Source: Eucommia ulmoides (Eukaryota; Streptophyta; Magnoliopsida; Garryales; Eucommiaceae). From it: a stretch of DNA of 64,000 nt. The stretch spans positions 33,336,474-33,400,473 of the forward strand of contig CM028325.1 in the NCBI GenBank assembly GCA_016647705.1, written 5' to 3'. Position 1 is the first letter of the stretch. Each line of letters begins with the position of its first letter. Positions 4,423 through 40,443 of this stretch are shown piece by piece. A program made the translations under genes and the position numbers. The notes beneath the pieces were generated by a model. That model was given only the letters and a program-made list of their open reading frames with translations, ran no database searches and had not been told where the DNA came from.

Positions 4423-5690
4423 AATACAGATGTAGAATTGCTCGGTACTTGGTTGTGGTTTTATCGTTGTTTTTTGCTGTTTTGCAGATGAATTTAAGCC
4501 TGCTTCAATCGATAAGAATCAGCCTGGAACATTGCACAAGAACAAGGACAACAGAGTCACCGTCGAATTCCACAACAACCAGCCTGGAAAACCTAAGGTG
4601 ACATTTCAAGGTAGTAGCGAGGATTACAAGGAAAACGATGCTGTTCTGTTCTTCGACGGTGAGAAATTCCGACTGGAGCGTTTGCACCGCGCCGTCAAGA
4701 GCTTGAGGCATGTTCGGGAAACCGGTGAATCTGTGGCCGGCGCTGCATCAGCCGGACCGAGTGCGGAGGCCAGTTCGCCGCCGGTAGGGAAGGGACCTAA
4801 GTTCCCGTCATCGAATAAAGCCCTTCATCCTGCGATGCAGGTGAGTTTTTGATTTCAACAAGCTAATTTCAATTCTATATTTTCCATACTTCGAGCAGGA
4901 TATCAACTCAATTGGAATAATTTGATCTTTCGTATCAGAGTGCCTTCAAATTGTTTGGATTTCATATTCAGCAATTGATTCACCAGAACTTCATAAATGA
5001 ATCATAAATCTCATTTAGGTCACTCCAATCTTCCTCAACCTTTATGTGCCTGTGCAGGTCGAGGTGGAGCGAATTGAAATTGGCGATTTCAAAACTGCAG
5101 GTTCATTTCATTGGCTTTTGCCCATTCACATCTTGTAATTTCATAACGATGATCATCTACTAATCTTTAAAATTCTTCATCTTCCTCCAGATCCAAAACC
5201 TAGAAATGAGAAGGTGATCGACTATCCTCCATCAGTTCCTCCAAACCCACCTAATTCGTCGCCAGACCTAAAAAACGACGAGTTGGAAGAACAATTGGAT
5301 ATCATGAATGATGACATGGACATGGACGATATTGGCGAGGCACCACCACCACCACAACCCCCCATTAACGTGAATCATTTTGAGAGAGAGCACAACAATA
5401 CCGGTATTGACATTAACATCCCACATCAAGATGATATGGACGATGAGATTGCTGATGTGGATGTAAGCGATGATGAAGCTGATAAAGGCCCTAATGCTGC
5501 CGAGGCCCTTAGGGCACAGGTGAATGCAGAGGAGGGAAGAGAGGAGCAAACTTCAAGCTCGAGCGATAGCAGCGGCAGCGAGAGCAGCGGTGGCAGCAGC
5601 AGCAGCGCGAGTGGCAGCAGCAGTGATAGCGAAAGCAGTGAGGGCGAGGGTGAGGGCGATGGCGATGGCGATTCAGTAAATTCGATATGA
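4253..5690 (+). CDS. EAF: EAF-type RNA polymerase II transcription elongation factor (340 aa, four exons)
   Basis: Model: join(4253..4379,4488..4840,5058..5100,5191..5690), all GT-AG, with codons split cleanly at junctions 1 and 3. Two in-frame ATGs open the frame; the first is used here. Residues about 18-125 form the EAF N-terminal domain: WYNLTLGSSF, then YEFKPASID across the first junction, then VTVEF, KPKVTFQG, DAVLFFDGE, FRLERLHRAVKSLRH. In animals this domain binds ELL and stimulates elongation within the super elongation complex; plants keep an EAF homolog. The C-terminus is acidic and serine-rich (DEIADVDVSDDEADKG, then long Ser/Gly/Asp/Glu runs), like EAF transactivation tails. It ends tail to tail with ClpP3-A. 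Its last 260 coding bases recur as a broken copy at 13216. Intron 1 begins with a (CT)n microsatellite right after the donor. Confidence 0.93.
4383..4421. repeat. (CT)n microsatellite directly after the EAF intron-1 donor
   Basis: About 19 CT dinucleotides begin 3 bp after the GT of the intron-1 donor (4380), inside a 108-bp intron. Length changes here would alter a very short intron close to the donor. Confidence 0.95.
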
Positions 5691-5735
5691 TAAATTAAGA
5701 TTTTTTTCCCACTTGGGTAGCGTTTGGCAGCGCAA

Positions 5736-6010
5736 AATTCAAACCTCGAAATTGAAATTGAAAGTGAATGCATGCGTTCATTTGTAATTCCAATTCCAAT
5801 GCTCCAATTTCACAAAACCAAATGCTGCTGTAAGGTAAACCCCTATTGGGAAGGAACAATTGTTATTTTATGTCTAAATTCAAACCTCGGAATTGGAATT
5901 GAAAGTGAATGCATGCGTTCATTTGTAATTCCAATTCCGATGCTCCAATTTCACAAAAACCAAATGCTGCTGTAAGGTAAAACCCTATTGGGAAGGAGCC
6001 ATTGTTTTTT
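5736..6010. repeat. Tandem duplication of about 140 bp in the EAF 3' flank
   Basis: Two near-identical units, about 5736-5876 and 5877-6010, share landmarks such as 'aattcaaacctcg', 'gaatgcatgcgttcattt' and 'ccctattgggaagga'. The corresponding flank of the broken EAF copy (13490-13630) has a single, shortened unit. The second unit therefore probably arose on the left side after the larger duplication, or was lost on the right. Confidence 0.85.
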
Positions 6011-6150
6011 AATGTAGAAGAATTGGAACAGAGAAATTTAACTATTGATAATAAAGACTCAGGAAATTCCAATTCACATTTTTTCACATGTTTCTTGTTG
6101 GACAAAAATTCTTTATATTTTGGCCAGTGGGAGAAAAAAGGGGGAATGTC

Positions 6151-6312
6151 TTAATCTAGAGCGGTTTTTTCCTCTTGCTGTTCATCGCCAATTTTAGAAA
6201 CATTACTTTAGAGGGACGGTCCTCTATGTTGTACTTCTTAGGACTTCATGAATGCGTAATCCTCTAGCCGGCGGTGGAACTGCAGGTTCAAAAATGGGTG
6301 CAACTAATCTTG
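6151..6312 (-). pseudogene. Broken 3' end of a ClpP3 gene (duplicate of ClpP3-A exon 5)
   Basis: On the minus strand this matches the last part of ClpP3-A exon 5 (13767-13957), including the stop, the Glu/Lys-rich tail and the segment encoding LVAPI. It has several substitutions and a deletion of about 14 bp relative to ClpP3-A. The match ends abruptly at 'aatcttg', where the LTR element starts. It lacks all catalytic exons and cannot encode a protease. Confidence 0.88.
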
Positions 6313-6315
6313 TAT

Positions 6316-12917: not shown

Positions 12918-13215
12918 TCCTACAATATCTGCAATATTAATGGGAACAAATTGATATTTACAGGAGACTTGTCAAACAAGTCTTCCGTACCCTATAAATA
13001 CTACATGAGAGATCTAGTCAAGTACACACTTTTTCCCATGTAATATTCTATCAAATTTCAACGAGAAAAACACTACTAATTCTCACACCTGAGGTGCAAT
13101 GCCGACAAACCCACCCTCAGTGTATTGTTTTGCAGAAACCAACGCTAGAAAAATCATTCATTCTGAATTGCAAAATACCATTCCTGACGAACCAAATTTT
13201 GCCTTCATCAACTTG

Positions 13216-13475
13216 TATTGACATTAATATCCCACAAGAAGATATGGACGACAGGATTGCTGGCGTGGATGTGAGCAATGATGAAGCTAATAAAGGCCCT
13301 AACGCGGCCGAGGTCCTTAGGGCACAAGTGAACGTAGGGGAGGGAAGAGAGAAGCAAATTTCGAGCTCGAGCAATAGTAGTGGCAGCGAGAGCAGCGGTG
13401 GTAGAAGCAGGCAGAAACAATGATAGCAAAAGCAATAAGGGTAAAGGCGATGGTGATGCAATAAATTCGGTCTAA
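13216..13475 (+). pseudogene. Broken EAF 3' end (duplicate of EAF exon 4)
   Basis: It begins within exon 4 at the segment corresponding to 5405. It keeps DINIPQEDMDD, GVDVSNDEANKGPNAAEVLR and the Ser-rich run, but has lost sequence in the Ser/Gly tract, shifting the frame early. The 5' three quarters of the gene, including the EAF domain, are absent. It lies directly after the gypsy-like element. Confidence 0.9.
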
Positions 13476-13766
13476 TAAATTCAGATTTTTTCCCACTTCG
13501 GTAGCATTTGGCAGCATGAAATTGAATATATGCGTTCATTTGTAATTCCAATTCCGATGCTCCAATATCATGAAACCAAATGTTACCTAAATTTAAAACC
13601 CTATTGGGAAAGAACCATTGTTATTCAATGCAGAAGAATTCGAACAGAGAAATTTAACTATTGATACAAACTCGAAAATTCCAATTTCCACTTTTTAATG
13701 TGTTTCTCATCGTACAAAAATTCTTTATATTTCGGACAATAGTAAGGGGAAAGAAAGGGGAATGTC

Positions 13767-16216
13767 TTAATCTAGAGCAGGTTTTTCCTCTTGAGCAGGT
13801 TTTTCCTCTTGTTGTTCATCGCAAATGTATCCGTTTAATTTTAGAAACCTTTCTTCGGAGGGACGGTCCTCTATGTTGTACTTCTTGGGACTCCATAAAT
13901 GCGAAATCCTAGCCGGTGGTGGATCTACAGGTTCAGAAATTGGTGCAACTAATCTTGGATGGTCTTCATTTATAATAGCATCCACCAACCCATATTCCTT
14001 TGCCTCCCACGGATTCATGAATTTATCTTTTCGAGTGTCTGATTCAATCTGCCAAAAAAAAAATCTTTAAGGTGGCGTTTGCAAGCAAGGAATTGGAATT
14101 GAAAATTAACACGTAAATTTTACATTTTTATCTGCGTTCATTTCTAAGACTCCAATTCCATGTAAGCAAACACTCTAAAGAGAAAAGGGAAGGAAAGAAG
14201 AAAAGATAATATAAGGGCCCCTTTGGTTACTGTTTCTGTTCCTTGATTCTTGTTTCTGCTCCCAAAATTTTTCAGTTTTGTCCCAGTTTTCTCTTCTCTT
14301 CTCTCCACTTCCCTCAATCCAAACAGACCATAAGAGTTGAAAAAGTTTGTCTAAAAGAAAAGGGAAAGGCATCCAAACAAAACCTGCTTCTCTGGCTTCC
14401 CCGTGATTCTTGAGAGTATCTTGTTCACCTTCATCTCCTGGTACATATGTTCTTTTACACGCCTAGTCACGTCCTCCAACTGGAATAATTGCATTCACCA
14501 CTTTTAAGTAATATAAAGGTGGATGAAGAGCAGCAGGAGGAGGAGGAGGAGGAGGACTTACATCACCCCTAGCGGATGCAGAAGGATGATGGATCATCAC
14601 CTTACTATTAGGCATACAAAATCTCTTCCCTTTACAGCCGGAAGCAAGGAGAAAAGCACCAAAGGATCCAGCATAACCCAAGCATATGGTTGAAATATCT
14701 GCTTTGCACGTCTTCATCGCGTCGTATATTCCCATGCCTAAAATCAGGAGATAGAGACACGTAATGAAGATGAAAACTTGATTACTTACTCTAGACAGGA
14801 AAAAACATAAATGGATTAGTAACAAGGGCACTTATAAACACCAAAAAGGGCTTTGATTGGATAAACAAAATTGAGAAGAGAACAAAAAGAATATGGTTTC
14901 TTCCCATTTCTGTCGTTTGGTAAATTTCGTGTGGAGAAAAGAGAAGAGCAGTAAGGAAAAACGGAGGGAAAGTTTCTTTACAAAATTGAAGCGTTCTTTC
15001 TCCCCCAACTTGGGCAGATTTTGAGAAGGTAAATGGGTGTGAAAAGACAAATCAATAGACTCAACATTGTATAAGTTCTACCCTTTGCTAATCGAATACA
15101 AGTCATTATTTTTAAAAGTTATCGGTTTATGTTAGAGCAACTCCAACAGCATAACCATCCCTTGTGCCATCCCAAATTTTGGCAATTTTGATGCCAAAAT
15201 GAGGCAAATGAGCTCGACCAGCTCACTCATCATCTGTGCCATTTTAGCACAGATGCCCTGTATGTGCAAAATATGGCCTAATAGTAAGAATCAACAGTGT
15301 GTGTGTCAGTGTGTATAAAAGAAAGTAGCTCTAACCCATTTTCTAAAGTTAAAAGTGATGCACCAAACAAGGAACAAAGCTAAAGCATGAGAGCAAAATA
15401 GGCTTACTAGCAGTACTAGAACCACCGGCCGAGTTTATGAAGAATCTTATGTCTTTATTCCGATCTTCCGCATCCAGAAATAAGAGCTGACTAATCAGAT
15501 AATCCGCCGTCATATCGTCTATCTGCTCATCACCAATTCATGCCCATTAACAGAAAAAGAACAACATAAAATTAGTGTCATCTCCTGAAATTTGCACATC
15601 TCATAAGCTTGTAAAAGCAATGAATAAGATCAATCACTTACATAAACATCACACACACACACATATATATATACACCTCAATCTGCATCCATTAAACTAC
15701 AAAGATTATATGCAACAGTAAGATAAACGAATTTCAAAATCAAAACCCAATTTTCCTAACATTTCAACCACCAAACTTTGGTCATTTCATTTGATTATAA
15801 CTAGCATACTTCTCCAATTTCACATATTTTCACACACACACGGAGAGAGAGAGAGAGAGAGAGAGGACCATGGAACACAAGAAGACGATTCTCTGTTTAA
15901 GCAGCATTTCGGTGGTATCGAGGTCTTCGAATTGAGGCATCAAAGCAGGCGAAGGCGCGGCATCGGAGACATCCCAATTGCAGGATAAGGTCCATTTTCC
16001 GTCAGTAGAGAAACTATTATTAAATGCTTTCGCCGGAGACCCTATTCTTCTGCTATGAATACTGCTACTGATGCCGGTAGTCATCGGAATTGATTGACAG
16101 AACACGGGGTTAGCCTTGGCCATGAACTGTTTAGAACCATCGCCTCCATGGCAGAATAAGCTAAGAGTTGAAGTGGGTCTTGAAGGCGCTGATGAGGCCA
16201 AACAACCCATCTCCAT
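13767..16216 (-). CDS. ClpP3-type plastid Clp protease subunit, copy A (338 aa, five exons, triad kept)
   Basis: Model: complement(join(13767..14048,14384..14479,14562..14737,15408..15522,15869..16216)). All introns are GT-AG with consistent phases. The start is the ATG matching the start of copy B (CLASSAPSR follows in both); an upstream in-frame ATG at 16330 would add 38 residues. Residues 1-80 resemble a chloroplast transit peptide. The fold markers follow: [88 protein letters not shown]. Residues aligned with the ClpP triad are Ser179 (GSFGA), His204 (VMIH) and Asp253 (TRKDKF). The usual NSPGGS is NSAGGS, and the handle region after His (usually QPLGTAGGKATEM) is PSASARGD-like, so it is a divergent ClpP3 paralog. 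It would act in the stromal Clp core. Intron 2 carries a MITE fragment. Confidence 0.85.
15134..15300. mobile_element. MITE fragment in ClpP3-A intron 2
   Basis: Starts AGAGCAACTCCAACAGC and continues 'tgccatcccaaattttggcaattttgatgcc'. This matches the start of the element at 28806 in ClpP3-B intron 1. Only one end is clear. The two copies are in different introns, so they are independent insertions, not inherited with the gene duplication. Confidence 0.6.
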
Positions 16217-18008: not shown

Positions 18009-18759
18009 TGTTAGGAAAATAATTTAAAATTAAATATTTTATTATATATAAATTATATTATTTTATTTAATAAAATTATTATTAATAATATATTTATAAT
18101 TGTTATAATTATGTGTTTAAATTACAAGTTCATTACACATTATTAATGTGAATAACTAATAAATTTATTAAAATGACACTATGAATTCTATATATTATAA
18201 ATATATATGTTACAATAGTATTTATGTGTACAATTAGTGATTTTATTAATTATAGTATTATGAGTACTTATTATTATATAAAAGTTGCATACTTCATGCA
18301 CTATATATAGGTGTGTGAAGATGAAAGAAAACATATATAGAGAAAATTAGAGAAAAGAGTATGATACTACATAAAATAATGAGTATGTTTATATTAAAAT
18401 ATATAAATAGAGAGAAGTGATGTTTTGTGATATTTTACATATATATACTTGATAATTTACGGGCAATAAAGTTTGCGATCGGTTTAATATAGGATGTCAT
18501 ACTTGCACCTTGACACTCTGGATCGTTGTATCTTGGGAAGGGCTCGTCATTCAACCCTGTGCATAGAGGAAGCGTATCTCTTCTTGGAACAATGTTTATA
18601 TGCCTCAATTCACCAAAGATGTATTTTCTCTCTATTCTATTCTTTATTTTATTTATTTAACTGTTGATGTTCTTAGTTATTTAACGAGATTGTAATTGCA
18701 TGTGAAATATGTTTATTATTTAATTTATATTTATATAATTATGTTAAATTTCTCCAACA
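18009..18759 (-). mobile_element. Solo LTR (copia-like family of the 39870 element), minus orientation
   Basis: Ends TGTTAGGAAAATAATTT and ...AAATTTCTCCAACA are flanked by an exact 5-bp TSD GATTG (18004-18008 and 18760-18764). Read on the minus strand it aligns with the LTRs at 39870 and 44740, including 'ataataatttcattaaataaaataatata' and the 'gatacgcctcctttgtgcatagggttgaacgacgagcccttcccaagatg'-like block. No internal region is attached, so it is a solo LTR left by recombination. It lies at the 5' edge of a decayed Mutator element. Confidence 0.85.
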
Positions 18760-25452: not shown

Positions 25453-28400
25453 TTACACTGGTTCCGGGATTTCCTTTTTCTCTCCTTCTTCAGGCTCGCC
25501 AATATAGCCATTATTTCCCTTCGGTAAAAGCAGTTTTTCTTCTGAGGGCAAATCATCGATCTCTTTCCATTCGGGATCCCACAAGTGCCAAACACTAGGC
25601 ATTGTGGGCGTTGGATCGACAAGTGGCGCTATTAATCCGGGCTTCCCATCGTCAATAACAGCATCAAGCAACCCATAGTCTCTCGCCTCCCACGGGTTCA
25701 TGTATTTTTCACCCTGTATGTCTGATTCAACCTGCCAGAAAACAAGGATTAATCGCACTTTGCATCCTTGAAATTCGGGTGCAGTCTGAATTTGATCCCT
25801 GATGATTTATGTTTTGGGGGCAAATTGCTTGATTCTGACCAATTTTATCGCCAGATGACTAGAAGATGAGAAAAAATAATGGAATAAGAGCACATATTAT
25901 ATTACACTTTTCACACTTAAAGTTTTTTTGTTGCACTTTACCCCCTAGTTCGCGAACAATTGGTTGAAATCAATCAATTGGACCAAATAGATACAAAAAA
26001 CAAACTTCATGCAGCCAACTGCGAAAAATAAAATATGAAATGGACAAAGTACAACCGCAGCTAAACTTTGTGGGTATAAAGTGCAATTTCACTAAAAAAA
26101 CCATATAGTTCAGTCTTTTTAAGATTTTTTTTTTGGGGTGGGGGGGTGGGAATCAAATAGAAAGTAGAAACAAAACCTGCTCGACCGGCTTCCCCGTGAT
26201 TCTTGAAAGTATCTTGTTCACCTTCTTAATATTTAAATTATGTTCTCTAAGGCGTATACCCCGATCAATCAACTGAAAGTGGAAACAAAAAAAAAAGGAA
26301 TGGGAATTATGCATAGTATAGTGTAACAGAGGAGAGTTTTTGTTTGTGTTCTTGTTCCCAAATAAGAAGAAGAACTTACGCTGCCCTCAAAACCGAAAGG
26401 AGTCTCTTGGAAGAACACCCTGCTATTAGGCATGCAAAACCTCTTTCCTTTGGAGCCAGAGGCAAGGAGAAAGGCACCGATGGATCCAGCCACACCCAGG
26501 CATAGGGTAGAAACATCTGCTTTGCATGTTTTCATAGCATCATATATTGCCATGCCTAATTCCAAAGTACAGTGGGGTTAAGTGCCTAATTCCAAAGTAC
26601 ATGGGAGTAAAGTAAAAATGAGTTTAAGAACAGGGAGTAGAATGCAATTATCCCATCTATTTATATGGGAAAAAAAATAATTTGAAAATATTATGAGAAA
26701 AAAAAATAGATTAGTTACCCTAAACCTGAAAAGTGAAGAGGAAGAATCGTTCCCAATATTGAAAAATAGAAAAATATAATTAGACTTTCTACAACATATT
26801 TTAACCGATTCAAATGGGACTATACACACAACAAAAACCCGCAAAAGCGCATTAGTATTGGGTTTATTGCTGCTTCATTTGTTTGTTGTGAGGCGAGCGA
26901 GTTATTTCAAAACCGAGCTCAACCTCTCGGGGCAAATATGTTTTTAAAAAGGGGGGTTTGTTTTATTGTTCTTTTTTTTTTTTTTTTTTTTTAAATGATA
27001 GAGAATTTACTTTTTAGTACCTATCAACTTATTTTTTAGTCTGTACCCATATTTTAGTTAACCTTAACTACGATATCAAATACAAATTCAACACTAACTA
27101 ATATCAACTCAATAGATTTAATTTGATTGATGTTAACTAAAGAATTAGAAAACAAAGAGGAAAAAATCAGGGACAAAAAATTACAAGTAACTTATTTCAA
27201 GGACAATGTAATAATTTCCCATCTAAAAAACCGCCCTTCTCTAGACGGCGTGGACAGGGTACCAGACAGGTTTATCATGCTCAATTTAAACCAAAAATGG
27301 GGTTAACATGCTCGATTTCAGTCTAAAATGCTGATTAGGATTGAAGAGACCATAACAACATAAAACAATTTCTACCTTAGTTTTAGGCAAAGTCAACATC
27401 AACCGAGTTTTTCTTAATTGTCCTTCCCAAGTTTTCTTTATTGCACATCTCCCCCTTACGGCATCTTCTAGCATAACCAAATTACACTTTCTAACTTGTG
27501 CAGCTATAGGTTTTCTATGTGCATGTTTGAACTTCTAATCATCTTAGGCTCCATTTGGATATATAGATTTGAAATCAAGGGATTTGCATGTTTTCATTTG
27601 AAAAGAATATGTTAGTCATCAGTATCAAATGGGCCCCAAAAAAACTACTGGCAGGATTAGATTTCTATTAACTTCTTTCAAAAAGTGATTTCAAATCTTT
27701 TTATTCAGACCACAGTTGCAAAAGGCTTAATTATTGTTGTTGTTGTGTTGTTGCAAAAGGCATTTTCCAGGTGAGCCTAGAGTAGGGGCATATAGTGGAA
27801 ATGCCCCTACGTTATGTTTGGGGCAAAATGCTCATTGGGCATACGCTCCAGGCTTTTGGCCCGAGCCCTAGGCATCAATTGGGTGAAGCCCAGGGCATAG
27901 GGTCTAAGCCCAATGACCTTTTTCATTTTTTTTAATTTAATTCCAGCGAATTAAATAATAATTAAAATTAGCTTATTTTAAGTTTTTAACTGACATTGGC
28001 ATCTAAAATAACTCAAGTAACTACTAGAAAATAAACTTGAAATATGGTCAAACATCTTCATCTTCCCCATCTTATATTTTTGCATATTATTCTTTTTTTA
28101 TATTATTTGTAGGTAGTTTTTAATTATTATATATTTTAAAAATATTAAATAACCATATTTCATATGGCTTACACCGACGCCTCAGGACTTACACGCAACA
28201 CGGGACAGGTTAAAACGCCCCATCTCATGCCCAAGCCTTTTACAACACTGATTCAAACTCATAAATGTATGGATTCAATTTGTTGCTATTCATCTCTTAG
28301 TATATATTTAAACTTCAAGTTATAATTTTTCATTGTAAATCCATTCATTTCAAATCCACCAATCCAAACGCAACCATAGACAGGTTTCTCACCCCTTATA

Positions 28401-30518
28401 CTCAACGTGTGCTACTCTTAACGTCTTTTCTATGTGCTCCTTCCTTATTCTATCCAACCACCTTAGCATTCTTCTTCTAGCTACACTTAATTTCTTGACA
28501 TACTTTTCATATAAGCAGCATAGGTAAAAAGTAGATTCTAAATATAAATGGAATGGGTGAAGCATATGAAGTATGAATACATAGGCTTCATACCAGAATA
28601 GCTAGAACCACCAGGTGTGTTAATGAACAATCTGATGTCCTTTTTCTGATCTTCAGCGTCAAGAAATAGGAGCTGACTGACCACAAAATCTGCAGTTACA
28701 TCGTCTATCTGCTCATTACCAATTTACTTCCCATTAATACAATAAACCACCTTCTGTTTTTGTACATGAAAAATTTAACCGAAAACAGACAATAAGAATA
28801 GAATAAGAGCAACTCCAACAGCTCAACCATCCTATGTGTCATCCCAAATGTTGGCAATTTTGATGCCAAATGACTTTCAACAACTCGGCTATCATTTGTG
28901 CCATATTGGCACAGCTACTCTGCGTGTGTCATATTTGGCATAGGCAGTATCCTGTGCCATATTTAGATGAGGGTTTAATTAAGGTTGGGTTAATTTAGGG
29001 TTTTACTTTTATTTTTAAATTTAAATTATTGTTATAATTTAATTTAAGTTAAAAAAAATCAAACTACATAAAAACATACATGATATTACATATTTTTAAG
29101 TTGATTTTGACTTTTAATTTTAATAAAAAAAATATATTTAAAAACTATAGTTAATTCTAAGTGAATTTTTATTTTTAGTTTTAATAAAAAAAAAAATCTT
29201 TTAACAAAATGACACACAGATTTTGGCATACCTGTTGGAGCACTCACTCTAAATTAGGTGTGCCATAGCAACATTCATGTACCATATTTGATAAATGGCA
29301 CACAAAATTTAGCCTAACTGTTGGCCAATATGCATAGTCCACAAGTCTTTCACTAAACGAGGAATGTCATGGCTCACATCAACAAAAAAAAAAACAATTT
29401 CACAGCTATAATATTGCTATATCAAGCATGAAGAAATTTGAATAGGTTAATAAGTGCATGTACGCTACCCCAAAAAGATCAAAACCAAATTTCTTGGCCT
29501 TTTAACTACCAAAAATGCTTTAATTTAAATTCTCAATTTTGGGCAATTTTCATAGTCCGTTAGTTTTAAATTTTTCATTAGCAAAGGATTATCATCAGGA
29601 TATTTATACTTCTTTTGACATCCGGAAATATGAAATTAAGATTCCTGTGACAAAACAAGGCCCTAAAAGGGAGTTCGGTCCATCTCCGGTGTGGGTGTTA
29701 GAGCATTGAGAGGATCTTTTTCTAGTACAAGAGGACCAGGAAGGATGCACCTCTGGTGTACCAGTTATAATGCCCACGGAAAATGGTAAACACTGGGTAG
29801 CCAAGTGCAGAGTCGTTATCCACCGAATAAAGTAGCTAGGCATATCTATTCATATTGTGGCTCCTATGAAGTTTCTTTCTTTGCTACAGATGATCAAACC
29901 TCACATAAACAGCTATCTAAATCTTCAAATTTATAGGGCATCAACAAAATAAACCAATTCCACCACTAAAATATTACTACACGATTCAGGAATTTGAAAT
30001 TTGAATAAGGTTAATATGTGCATATACGCATCGAACTCGTTTCAGCAATCGGGCTATACCCCCACCAAAGATCAGATCCCTCTTTCTCGGCATTTCAAAC
30101 ACCGAATCGCGATTATAATTAGCAGACTACACACACACACACACACACACAGAGTGAGAGAGAGAGGGGGGACCGGAGAACTCAAGAAGACGATTCTCTG
30201 GCGAAGAAGCATGTTGGTGGGATCGAGTTCGTCAATTCGCGGCAGCCGCGTAGGCGTAGATGCGTGACTAGAGACATCCCAATTGCTGGATAAGGTCGGT
30301 CTTCCACCTGTAGGCGGACTATGCTTCAATGCTTTCACGGAAACCCCTCTCCTTCTGCTCCAAATGCTACCGGCGCCGGATGTAATTGGAAGAATCGACG
30401 ATTGGCAGACATGGTCGACCATGAACTGATTAGAAGCATCGCCTCCACCATGGCTGAATAAGGCGAGAGATGAAGTGAGTCTCGAAGGTGCCGATGAGGC
30501 TAAACAACCCATCTTCAT
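25453..30518 (-). CDS. ClpP3-type plastid Clp subunit, copy B (336 aa, five exons, His and Asp of the triad replaced)
   Basis: Model: complement(join(25453..25731,26177..26272,26380..26555,28594..28708,30174..30518)). Exon lengths 345/115/176/96/279 mirror copy A (348/115/176/96/282), with the same phases and GT-AG sites. A transit-peptide-like N-terminus ends before LSSNWDVSS; then [77 protein letters not shown] and [26 protein letters not shown]. Ser178 aligns with the nucleophile. The position of the catalytic His is Gln203 (RVFFQE instead of RVMIHQ), and that of the Asp is Glu252 (QGEKY instead of DRDNF). Plastid ClpR subunits are Clp-fold proteins without a full triad, so this looks like an independent ClpR-like state in a ClpP3 paralog. 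The frame is intact over five exons, arguing against a simple pseudogene. Introns 1 and 2 are swollen by transposons and plastid DNA. Confidence 0.82.
27286..28510 (-). pseudogene. LINE reverse-transcriptase C-terminal remnant in ClpP3-B intron 2, split by a TIR element
   Basis: On the minus strand 28510-28381 gives [19 protein letters not shown], like the plant LINE 'sv.emrmLRWm.g.tr.d.iRn' block. After the TIR insertion, 27540-27430 gives [19 protein letters not shown] then [17 protein letters not shown], like 'H..RRp...PVr......g..RGRGRPkkTW'. Together they are one degraded LINE tail, antisense-free within the intron of a gene on the same strand. Confidence 0.6.
27547..28375. mobile_element. 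TIR element inside the intronic LINE remnant
   Basis: Left GGCTCCATTTGGATATATAG and, as reverse complement, right GGTTGCGTTTGGATTGGTGG form imperfect TIRs of the 'cgTTTGGAT' type. Subterminal 'gatttgaaatc' and 'atttgaaatg' are also inverted. It may contain a further nested piece (27770-28240, 'ggcccgagccctaggc'). TSD is not clean. No coding content. Confidence 0.45.
28806..29250. mobile_element. MITE in ClpP3-B intron 1
   Basis: Starts AGAGCAACTCCAACAGC, and its right end reads AGAGTGAGTGCTCCAACAG in reverse complement. The interior is AT-rich with 'tttggcatag'-type units. A fragment of the same family is in ClpP3-A intron 2 (15134). No exact TSD seen. Confidence 0.6.
29671..29840 (+). pseudogene. 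Plastid 23S rRNA gene fragment in the nucleus (NUPT) within ClpP3-B intron 1
   Basis: Matches the 3' part of chloroplast 23S rRNA: 'agttcggtccat.tccggtgtggg', 'gttagagcattgagagga', 'ctagtac.agaggacc', 'gcacctctggtgtaccagtta', 'gggtagccaagtgc'. It covers the region around the sarcin/ricin loop (agtacaagaggacc here, agtacgagaggacc in the functional gene). Scattered C-to-T and G-to-A changes and a short insertion (acggaaaatggtaaac) show it is an old, non-functional nuclear copy. It lies in antisense to ClpP3-B. Confidence 0.88.
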
Positions 30519-39276: not shown

Positions 39277-40443
39277 TGATCTCTTGGAAATATCTATTGT
39301 GATGTTAGATTATAACCCAATAAGGCTTATTTTTGCCAACTCTATTTTATTAAATTTGGTTTTTTTAAGGCTTATTTTTGTTAACTCTGTTTTAGTAAAT
39401 TTGGTTTTTTTATGTAAATAAATAAGCCCCCATTGTTGGACCTATAGGTCGGGACGACTAGAAGCATCATTTACAATTTACTTTAGGGAATATTTGGTCG
39501 TACGAAAATTGGATCTTTAATATTAAAATTAGTAATGGACCCAGTTTGAAATCACTTTTATTTCAAAAAGATTAATTTTGTATGGATATTGTATTTCGTA
39601 ATATGTTTTTTATTGATAAGTAATTTATTATAATTGGGGGTGGAAGATTTGATCTCACAACCCCTCATTAAAGAGTCATTACCGGCTGGGAACCTACTTG
39701 GTATCCCCCTCAACCATGGTAGACAAAAGTAAAAATCACTATAATGAAATACTTAACAAAATTCATAAAAGACTTTCCTCCTGGAAAGCAAAAATGTTTT
39801 CTACGAAGGGAAGGGTTACCCTCATTAAAGTTGTCACCTCCTCGATCCCGAATTATACCATCCAAATATTGTTGGGAAAATTCACATAATTATATAAATT
39901 CAAAATAAATAAATAAATATTACATACAATATCAAACTCTTTAAATAACTAAGAATATCAACAATTAAATAAATAAAATAAATAATAGAATAGAGAGAAA
40001 AAACATATCGAGCGGATCGAGATGTGAAAACATTGTCCTAGAAGAGATACGCCTCCTTTGTGCATAGGGTTGAACGACGAGCCCTTCCCAAGATGTAACG
40101 ATCTAGGGCGTCAAGGTAACAGCAGGATATCCTAATATTGAACTAATTGCGAACCTTATTGCCCGTAAATTATCAATTATATAATATACACGAAATATCA
40201 CAAAACATCACTTCTCTCTATTTATATATCTCAATAAAATCATGCTCACTATTTTATATATTATCATATAGTATCATACTATTTTCTTCTATATTTTTCT
40301 ATGTCACTCTACTACATCTCATTCCATATTTTCTTTCATCCTTACATACACATATATAGTGTATAGATTATGTAACTCTTATTATCATATTAAATACTCA
40401 TAATATTATAATAAATAAAATCGCTAATTATATACATAAATAT

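Follow-up and report, generated by a model that had tools for sequence, protein, structure and literature searches.

Can a subunit of the plastid Clp protease lose catalytic residues and still be retained as a structural part of the core? The question is raised by one of two tandem ClpP genes (copies A and B, both on the minus strand, 9.2 kb between them) in a 64,000-nucleotide stretch of the Eucommia ulmoides genome, here called the window (C1:33336474-33400473 within a 947-Mb assembly of 391 contigs). To judge from its sequence, copy B is fairly likely to represent a functional, proteolytically inactive ClpP3 paralogue, i.e., a structural P-ring subunit, in a lineage with very divergent clpP1.

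Both gene models were built by hand. Copy B (30518-25453) comprises five exons with GT-AG borders that encode a stop-free protein of 336 amino acids; copy A (16216-13767) likewise comprises five GT-AG exons, encoding 338 amino acids, with intron phases identical to those of copy B. The exons and the triad codons of copy B are as follows.

30174..30518, minus strand: copy B exon 1 (presumably the N-terminus with its transit peptide; weak donor GTCCCC)
28594..28708, minus strand: copy B exon 2 (PF00574 match)
26380..26555, minus strand: copy B exon 3 (PF00574 match; carries Ser178 and Gln203)
26177..26272, minus strand: copy B exon 4 (handle helix)
25453..25731, minus strand: copy B exon 5 with stop
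26482..26484, minus strand: Ser178 codon TCC of copy B (nucleophile retained)
26407..26409, minus strand: CAA codon of copy B for Gln203, in the position of the catalytic His (11-protein alignment)
25708..25710, minus strand: GAA codon of copy B for Glu252, in the position of the catalytic Asp (11-protein alignment)
15869..16216, minus strand: copy A exon 1
15408..15522, minus strand: copy A exon 2
14562..14737, minus strand: copy A exon 3 (carries Ser179 and His204)
14384..14479, minus strand: copy A exon 4
13767..14048, minus strand: copy A exon 5 with stop (carries Asp253)

An earlier note on this DNA had given the coordinates of copy B, its 336 residues and five exons, and Ser178, Gln203 and Glu252, all of which are correct by the gene model; His204 and Asp253, which it had read in the neighbouring copy A, are present as well. 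The exon-1 donors are weak in both genes and identically placed (GTCCTC in copy A, window 15859-15868; GTCCCC in copy B, 30164-30173).

In the alignment of 11 ClpP-type proteins, Gln203 and Glu252 of copy B occupy the columns in which the reference ClpPs carry His and Asp. Copy B does not possess the Ser-His-Asp triad of an active ClpP, since His and Asp are gone and only Ser178 is kept; measured by the triad loss of ClpR proteins, it is without two of the three residues, Ser still being present. Copy A carries all three (Ser179, codon TCC; His204, CAT; Asp253, GAT). A base-calling error at the two codons of copy B is unlikely, because the lost residues lie amid many local changes and outside homopolymers. 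Copy B is probably proteolytically inactive, which forms one part of the joint reading as a structural ClpP3 paralogue.

Membership of the ClpP family is evident from PF00574 exon matches exceeding the cut-off. The ClpP model NF001368 matches copy B with E=4e-57 and copy A with E=8e-63, both under a curated cut-off that is set for bacteria and archaea. Among solved structures, copy B comes closest to chain C of PDB 7eko (E=1e-50), which we take to be a plastid Clp subunit (ClpP5) of Chlamydomonas; the 6wr2 chain, likewise a reference sequence, is presumably E. coli ClpP. Within the genome the best match of copy B is copy A, with 119/190 identical residues in the core stretch. Summed over its exon pieces, copy B yields 380 tblastn bits with copy A, 163 with a ClpP4-like and 151 with a ClpP2-like gene, and 81 and 56 with the ClpR genes at C6:24.68 Mb and C8:72.68 Mb, respectively; descent from the ClpR1-4 lineage was rejected on the basis of 380 bits to copy A vs 81 and 56 to the ClpRs. 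The first of these ClpR genes appeared ClpR3-like initially, but seems closer to ClpR4.

Judged by closest paralogue and gene structure, copy B pairs with copy A as its paralogue and is a predicted plastid ClpP3. The name ClpP3 rests on the length and sites of tea ClpP3, on elimination of the other genome matches and on sequence features: it was chosen because of the agreement with tea ClpP3 and because the other genome matches resemble ClpP1, P2, P4, P5, P6 and ClpR. The labels ClpP1, P2, P4, P5, P6, R2, R3 and R4 were assigned from sequence features and are to be taken as assumptions. The proposal in the earlier note of a ClpR-like subunit derived from a ClpP3 duplicate holds with respect to the loss of two triad residues, the open frame, the constrained core and the paralogy with copy A, but not with respect to ClpR family membership, given the best match to copy A and the retained Ser. 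Copy B would act like a ClpR, yet lies outside the ClpR clade by best match, and is best called a non-catalytic ClpP3 paralogue.

Selection on the two copies was assessed from the pairwise ratio of nonsynonymous (dN) to synonymous (dS) substitution rates by a simple counting method. Over the full length (330 codons), dN was 0.31, dS 0.75 and dN/dS 0.41 (bootstrap 0.30-0.55); in the core outside the handle (145 codons), dN was 0.16, dS 0.74 and dN/dS 0.22 (bootstrap 0.12-0.36). By part, dN/dS amounted to 0.17 for residues 101-199, 0.34 for residues 230-275 and 1.65 for the 30 codons of residues 200-229 (39.5 nonsynonymous vs 7.5 synonymous differences; bootstrap 0.59-6.4). According to E. coli numbering, this last segment presumably covers the catalytic-His strand and the start of the handle. 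Divergence of A and B around the His exceeds chance placement: in a location-free shuffle test, the poorest 26-residue window held 6 identities (119/190 overall), a value reached in 7/10000 shuffles.

The same concentration is evident from columns invariant in five reference ClpPs, of which copy B keeps 25/36 and copy A 31/36. Inside the active-site/handle cluster only 1/9 of these columns is kept by copy B (6/9 by copy A), outside it 24/27 (25/27 by copy A). Outside the cluster, none of six outgroups gave a significant difference between A and B in relative-rate counts (largest chi-square 1.0). When this window, anchored on the His, was transferred to the three ClpP5-like genes of the genome (132 codons per comparison, dS 0.73-1.03), the point estimates of dN/dS were 1.01, 1.25 and 1.03 in the handle, and 0.29, 0.16 and 0.25 in the rest. 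If copy A is assumed unchanged in its amino acids and dS split evenly, dN/dS for copy B is at most 0.43 (upper bound 0.72). In neutral simulations starting from the copy A coding sequence (substitutions only, no indels), none of 4000 runs was stop-free at 0.37 substitutions/site, i.e., half the A/B dS. Taken as sequence comparison, this is not the picture expected of copy B under neutral decay, and purifying selection appears to act over most of its core. The handle-region changes that the earlier note had seen in both copies are borne out; its word 'relaxed' fits this one stretch (1.65) and not the rest of the core (0.22).

A number of results weigh against a structurally retained copy B. The bootstrap interval of the handle spans 1 and hence does not establish a ratio above 1; the stretch itself was first picked after inspection of the A/B alignment; and the ClpP5 handle values are point estimates. 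Pairwise counts cannot place the constraint on the copy B branch alone, and for the N-terminal 100 residues dN/dS is 0.62 with an interval of 0.32-1.18. With all sites and the 7eko chain as outgroup, copy B evolves faster (8 A-unique vs 19 B-unique sites, chi-square 4.48); with the other five outgroups the all-site difference is not significant. Finally, the exon-1 splice donor of copy B is weak, and a recent loss of function is possible, as 16% of neutral runs keep the frame at 0.05 substitutions/site.

The last two points would suit a young pseudogene, i.e., a gene functional for long and recently released that lost its catalytic residues first, with the frame still intact, and the broken ClpP3 remnant in the same window attests that copies decay here. 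We regard this as unlikely, though deserving more weight than the other alternatives: the changes are clustered (1/9 invariant columns kept inside, 24/27 outside), unlike recent uniform decay, and a similar local contrast recurs among the ClpP5-like paralogues. A plain pseudogene is not favoured because of the open frame, the splice borders and the selection; the weak exon-1 donor is common to copy A.

Copy B could also have taken up a separate job as an inactive decoy or regulatory ClpP-like protein outside the core, e.g., in a single tissue or outside the plastid. The loss of both His and Asp, the strong local change and the retention of the copies side by side to a dS of ~0.74 would be compatible with this; it is nonetheless improbable, for A and B retain the conserved columns beyond the cluster about equally well, and the first residues of copy B resemble those of copy A. 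That copy B is still an active protease employing another residue near the site is hardly credible, even with Ser178 retained and Glu chemically near Asp, considering that the ten residues to either side of Gln203 include no His, that Ser-to-Ala exchange blocks activity in the ClpPs named in PMC6508832, and that mutation of the Asp abolishes bacterial ClpP activity (PMC4425659).

No further full or canonical ClpP3 was found in the 947-Mb genome with PF00574, copy A and copy B as queries, in an exon-by-exon search that scored best candidates only and overlooked the remnant at 6154-6310 of the window, so that fragments or very divergent copies may escape it. The third canonical ClpP3 that the earlier note had asked for did not turn up elsewhere in this exon-wise search. 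Since no third ClpP3 was found, copy A is the only triad-bearing ClpP3 seen, and is itself altered around the His. The triad sites of the ClpP-type genes read as follows (genome coordinates where needed to tell genes apart).

ClpP3 copy A: S-H-D
ClpP3 copy B: S-Q-E
ClpP5-like, C14: S-H-D
ClpP5-like, C5:61.257 Mb: S-H-D
ClpP5-like, C5:61.264 Mb: S-R-D
ClpP4: S-H-D
mitochondrial-type ClpP2: S-H-D
clpP1-like: S-H-D
ClpP6-like, C7:46.47 Mb: S-Y-M

The triad loss noted for copy B is thus confirmed and not confined to it, since a ClpP5-like copy and the ClpP6-like gene are likewise without triad residues. In the third ClpP5-like gene (C5:61264371-61266111) the His is replaced by Arg (codon CGT), with Ser and Asp intact. 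The ClpP6-like gene (C7:46467090-46478247), the sole one found, carries Tyr in place of the His and Met in place of the Asp. It was read from separate exons, one middle exon being a candidate whose score of 3.25 was beaten in 4/20 shuffles. This candidate was preferred for its length, its splice borders and its likeness to Arabidopsis ClpP6; the gene was first taken as ClpP6- or ClpR4-like, and subsequently, from its ends, assumed to be ClpP6. A retrotransposon lies between its exons. Altogether, three of seven apparent nuclear plastid ClpP-type genes are without one or two triad residues (a ClpP5-like fragment at C4:29.01 Mb was left out of this count), and Ser is kept in all seven; the proportion becomes 2/6 if the ClpP6-like gene is a ClpR, in which case its sites are ordinary.

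The Arg preceding the catalytic Asp is replaced by Lys in copy A, Gly in copy B, Asn in the ClpP6-like protein, and Thr and Phe in two ClpP5 copies, and is kept in P4, P2, the P1-like protein and the C14 ClpP5. We take this Arg to be part of a ring-contact sensor in bacteria.

The state of clpP1 can be gauged from clpP1-like single-exon frames and fragments at C2:30.63, C17:12.07, C8:40.19, C8:4.45, C8:4.53, C6:53.8, C12:7.05 and C10:45.85 Mb, the last of which, also last among 31 PF00574 matches, reads as another such fragment. One frame comprises 257 amino acids from TTG or 251 from ATG. The frames are intronless, have no N-terminal extension and share 81-98% DNA identity with the longest (six compared). 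Nuclear transfer of clpP1 seems less likely than plastid insertion in view of this identity range and the absent N-terminal extension; by their sequences, the clpP1-like frames in large contigs are probably plastid insertions. The clpP1-like protein (one copy) retains 19/36 invariant columns, and if its frame mirrors the plastid gene, clpP1 would be very divergent in the Eucommia lineage. In addition, accD-like matches occur in two stop-free pieces at C17:7158883-7160575 (272 bits, under the model cut-off); such a two-piece gene might fit the expectation after transfer of accD to the nucleus. Campanulaceae combine a fast clpP1 with a nuclear accD (PMC13315176), but introns are reported for clpP of Campanulastrum (PMC4300152), unlike the intronless frames of Eucommia.

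In the chloroplast Clp core, the P-ring contains P3:P4:P5:P6 in the ratio 1:2:3:1 and lies against an R-ring that includes three copies of ClpP1, encoded in the plastid (PMC6508832, PMC7966870). Substitution rates of ClpP1 and the nuclear Clp subunits are tightly correlated (PMC7966870, citing Williams 2019), and in bacterial ClpP the handle helix forms the inter-ring contacts, the active site being located where the handle meets the body (PMC8182300). For copy B the likeliest picture would be a transcript that is expressed and spliced, and a product that enters the chloroplast, retains the fold of a ClpP protomer and assembles in the place of ClpP3 in the P-ring, either alternating with copy A or occupying a subset of cores. 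There it would lend structure and a remodelled contact between the rings without contributing an active site. The handle changes would follow the very divergent ClpP1 of the facing R-ring, P-ring subunits being remodelled at the face that meets the fast ClpP1, and those with dispensable catalysis would have lost residues meanwhile.

In Arabidopsis, the catalysis of CLPP3 is dispensable: the dead subunit CLPP3(S164A) is capable of assembly and complements the clpp3 null mutant in full, whereas dead CLPP5 fails to rescue clpp5 (PMC6508832). The situation in Eucommia, where one ClpP5-like gene keeps a canonical site and the extra copies vary, fits these findings. Only tentatively may one speculate further that the P-ring as a whole is turning into a mixed, R-like ring: ClpP3 and ClpP5 duplicates and the ClpP6-like subunit would remodel the strand and helix on their side towards the R-ring, following the divergent ClpP1, and drop catalytic residues, with ClpP1, ClpP4 and those ClpP5 and ClpP3 copies that are intact left to do the cleaving.

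The window also records part of the history of the ClpP3 copies, in the following features.

6154..6310, minus strand: broken third ClpP3 remnant, last exon only, frame disrupted
4532..4852, plus strand: partial gene for EAF, a transcription elongation factor, close to the ClpP3 remnant (PF09816)
13215..13625, plus strand: EAF 3' remnant adjoining copy A, similar to 5404-5867

Self-similarity amounts to 76% for 5404-5867 vs 13215-13625 and 78% for 5900-6315 vs 13517-13960. The fuller EAF gene (4.5-5.7 kb) adjoins the broken ClpP3 last exon, and the truncated EAF 3' end adjoins the intact copy A; the duplicated EAF-ClpP3 segment (5404-6315, 13215-13960) seems to have degenerated reciprocally. 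With its lost frame, the remnant at 6154-6310 shows local ClpP3 decay. An inverted repeat pair (18219-18759 and 39870-40442; 578 aligned positions, 78% identity) flanks the region of copy B. A SINA-type gene is also located within the window, and a SINA-like cluster presumably flanks ClpP3 of Arabidopsis, too.

In 2018 it was raised as an open question how many of its ten chloroplast Clp active sites a plant can do without, and engineered CLPP3 and CLPP5 served to test it (PMC6508832). If true, natural residue loss in copies of ClpP3, ClpP5 and perhaps also ClpP6 would put the number of spareable sites to the test over evolutionary time. It would furthermore show the renewed origin of a dead, ClpR-like subunit and pin the nuclear response to a fast clpP1 on one part of the protein, the handle.

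Natural loss of the catalytic Asp in Acacia ClpP1 and nuclear Clp duplication in Silene are already known from the parts of the literature drawn upon; no inactive ClpP3 duplicate with a rapidly evolving handle came up in the open-licence literature of PubMed Central (PMC) as far as covered, and lost catalytic residues in such lineages may have been reported before. Several known systems invite comparison. (i) CsClpP3 of tea resembles copy B in length (344 vs 336 amino acids), in its sites (S182/H206/D255 vs S178/Q203/E252), in Ser-His spacing (24 vs 25) and in a third exon starting shortly before the Ser, but is reported to be a single copy with intact triad, whereas Eucommia has two copies, one of them (B) without His and Asp (PMC8831552). 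(ii) The Arabidopsis CLPP3(S164A) is likewise a non-catalytic ClpP3, one that assembles and serves the plant, as copy B is predicted to do; it is an engineered single Ser change, whereas copy B is natural, with Ser kept, His and Asp lost and the handle remodelled (PMC6508832). (iii) Plastid ClpR1-4 are inactive subunits with ClpP fold in the same core, but are established R-ring subunits, whereas copy B is a paralogue that matches copy A best. (iv) In Silene, CLPP5A/B and a triplicated CLPR2 also represent nuclear duplication of Clp core subunits in a lineage with fast clpP1, but the parts of that report drawn upon do not mention catalytic residues being lost (PMC8496259). (v) ClpP1 of Acacia ligulata, with its Asp178Val exchange, is also a plastid Clp subunit with natural loss of the catalytic Asp and is transcribed and spliced there; unlike copy B, it is plastid-encoded and has lost a single residue (PMC4425659).

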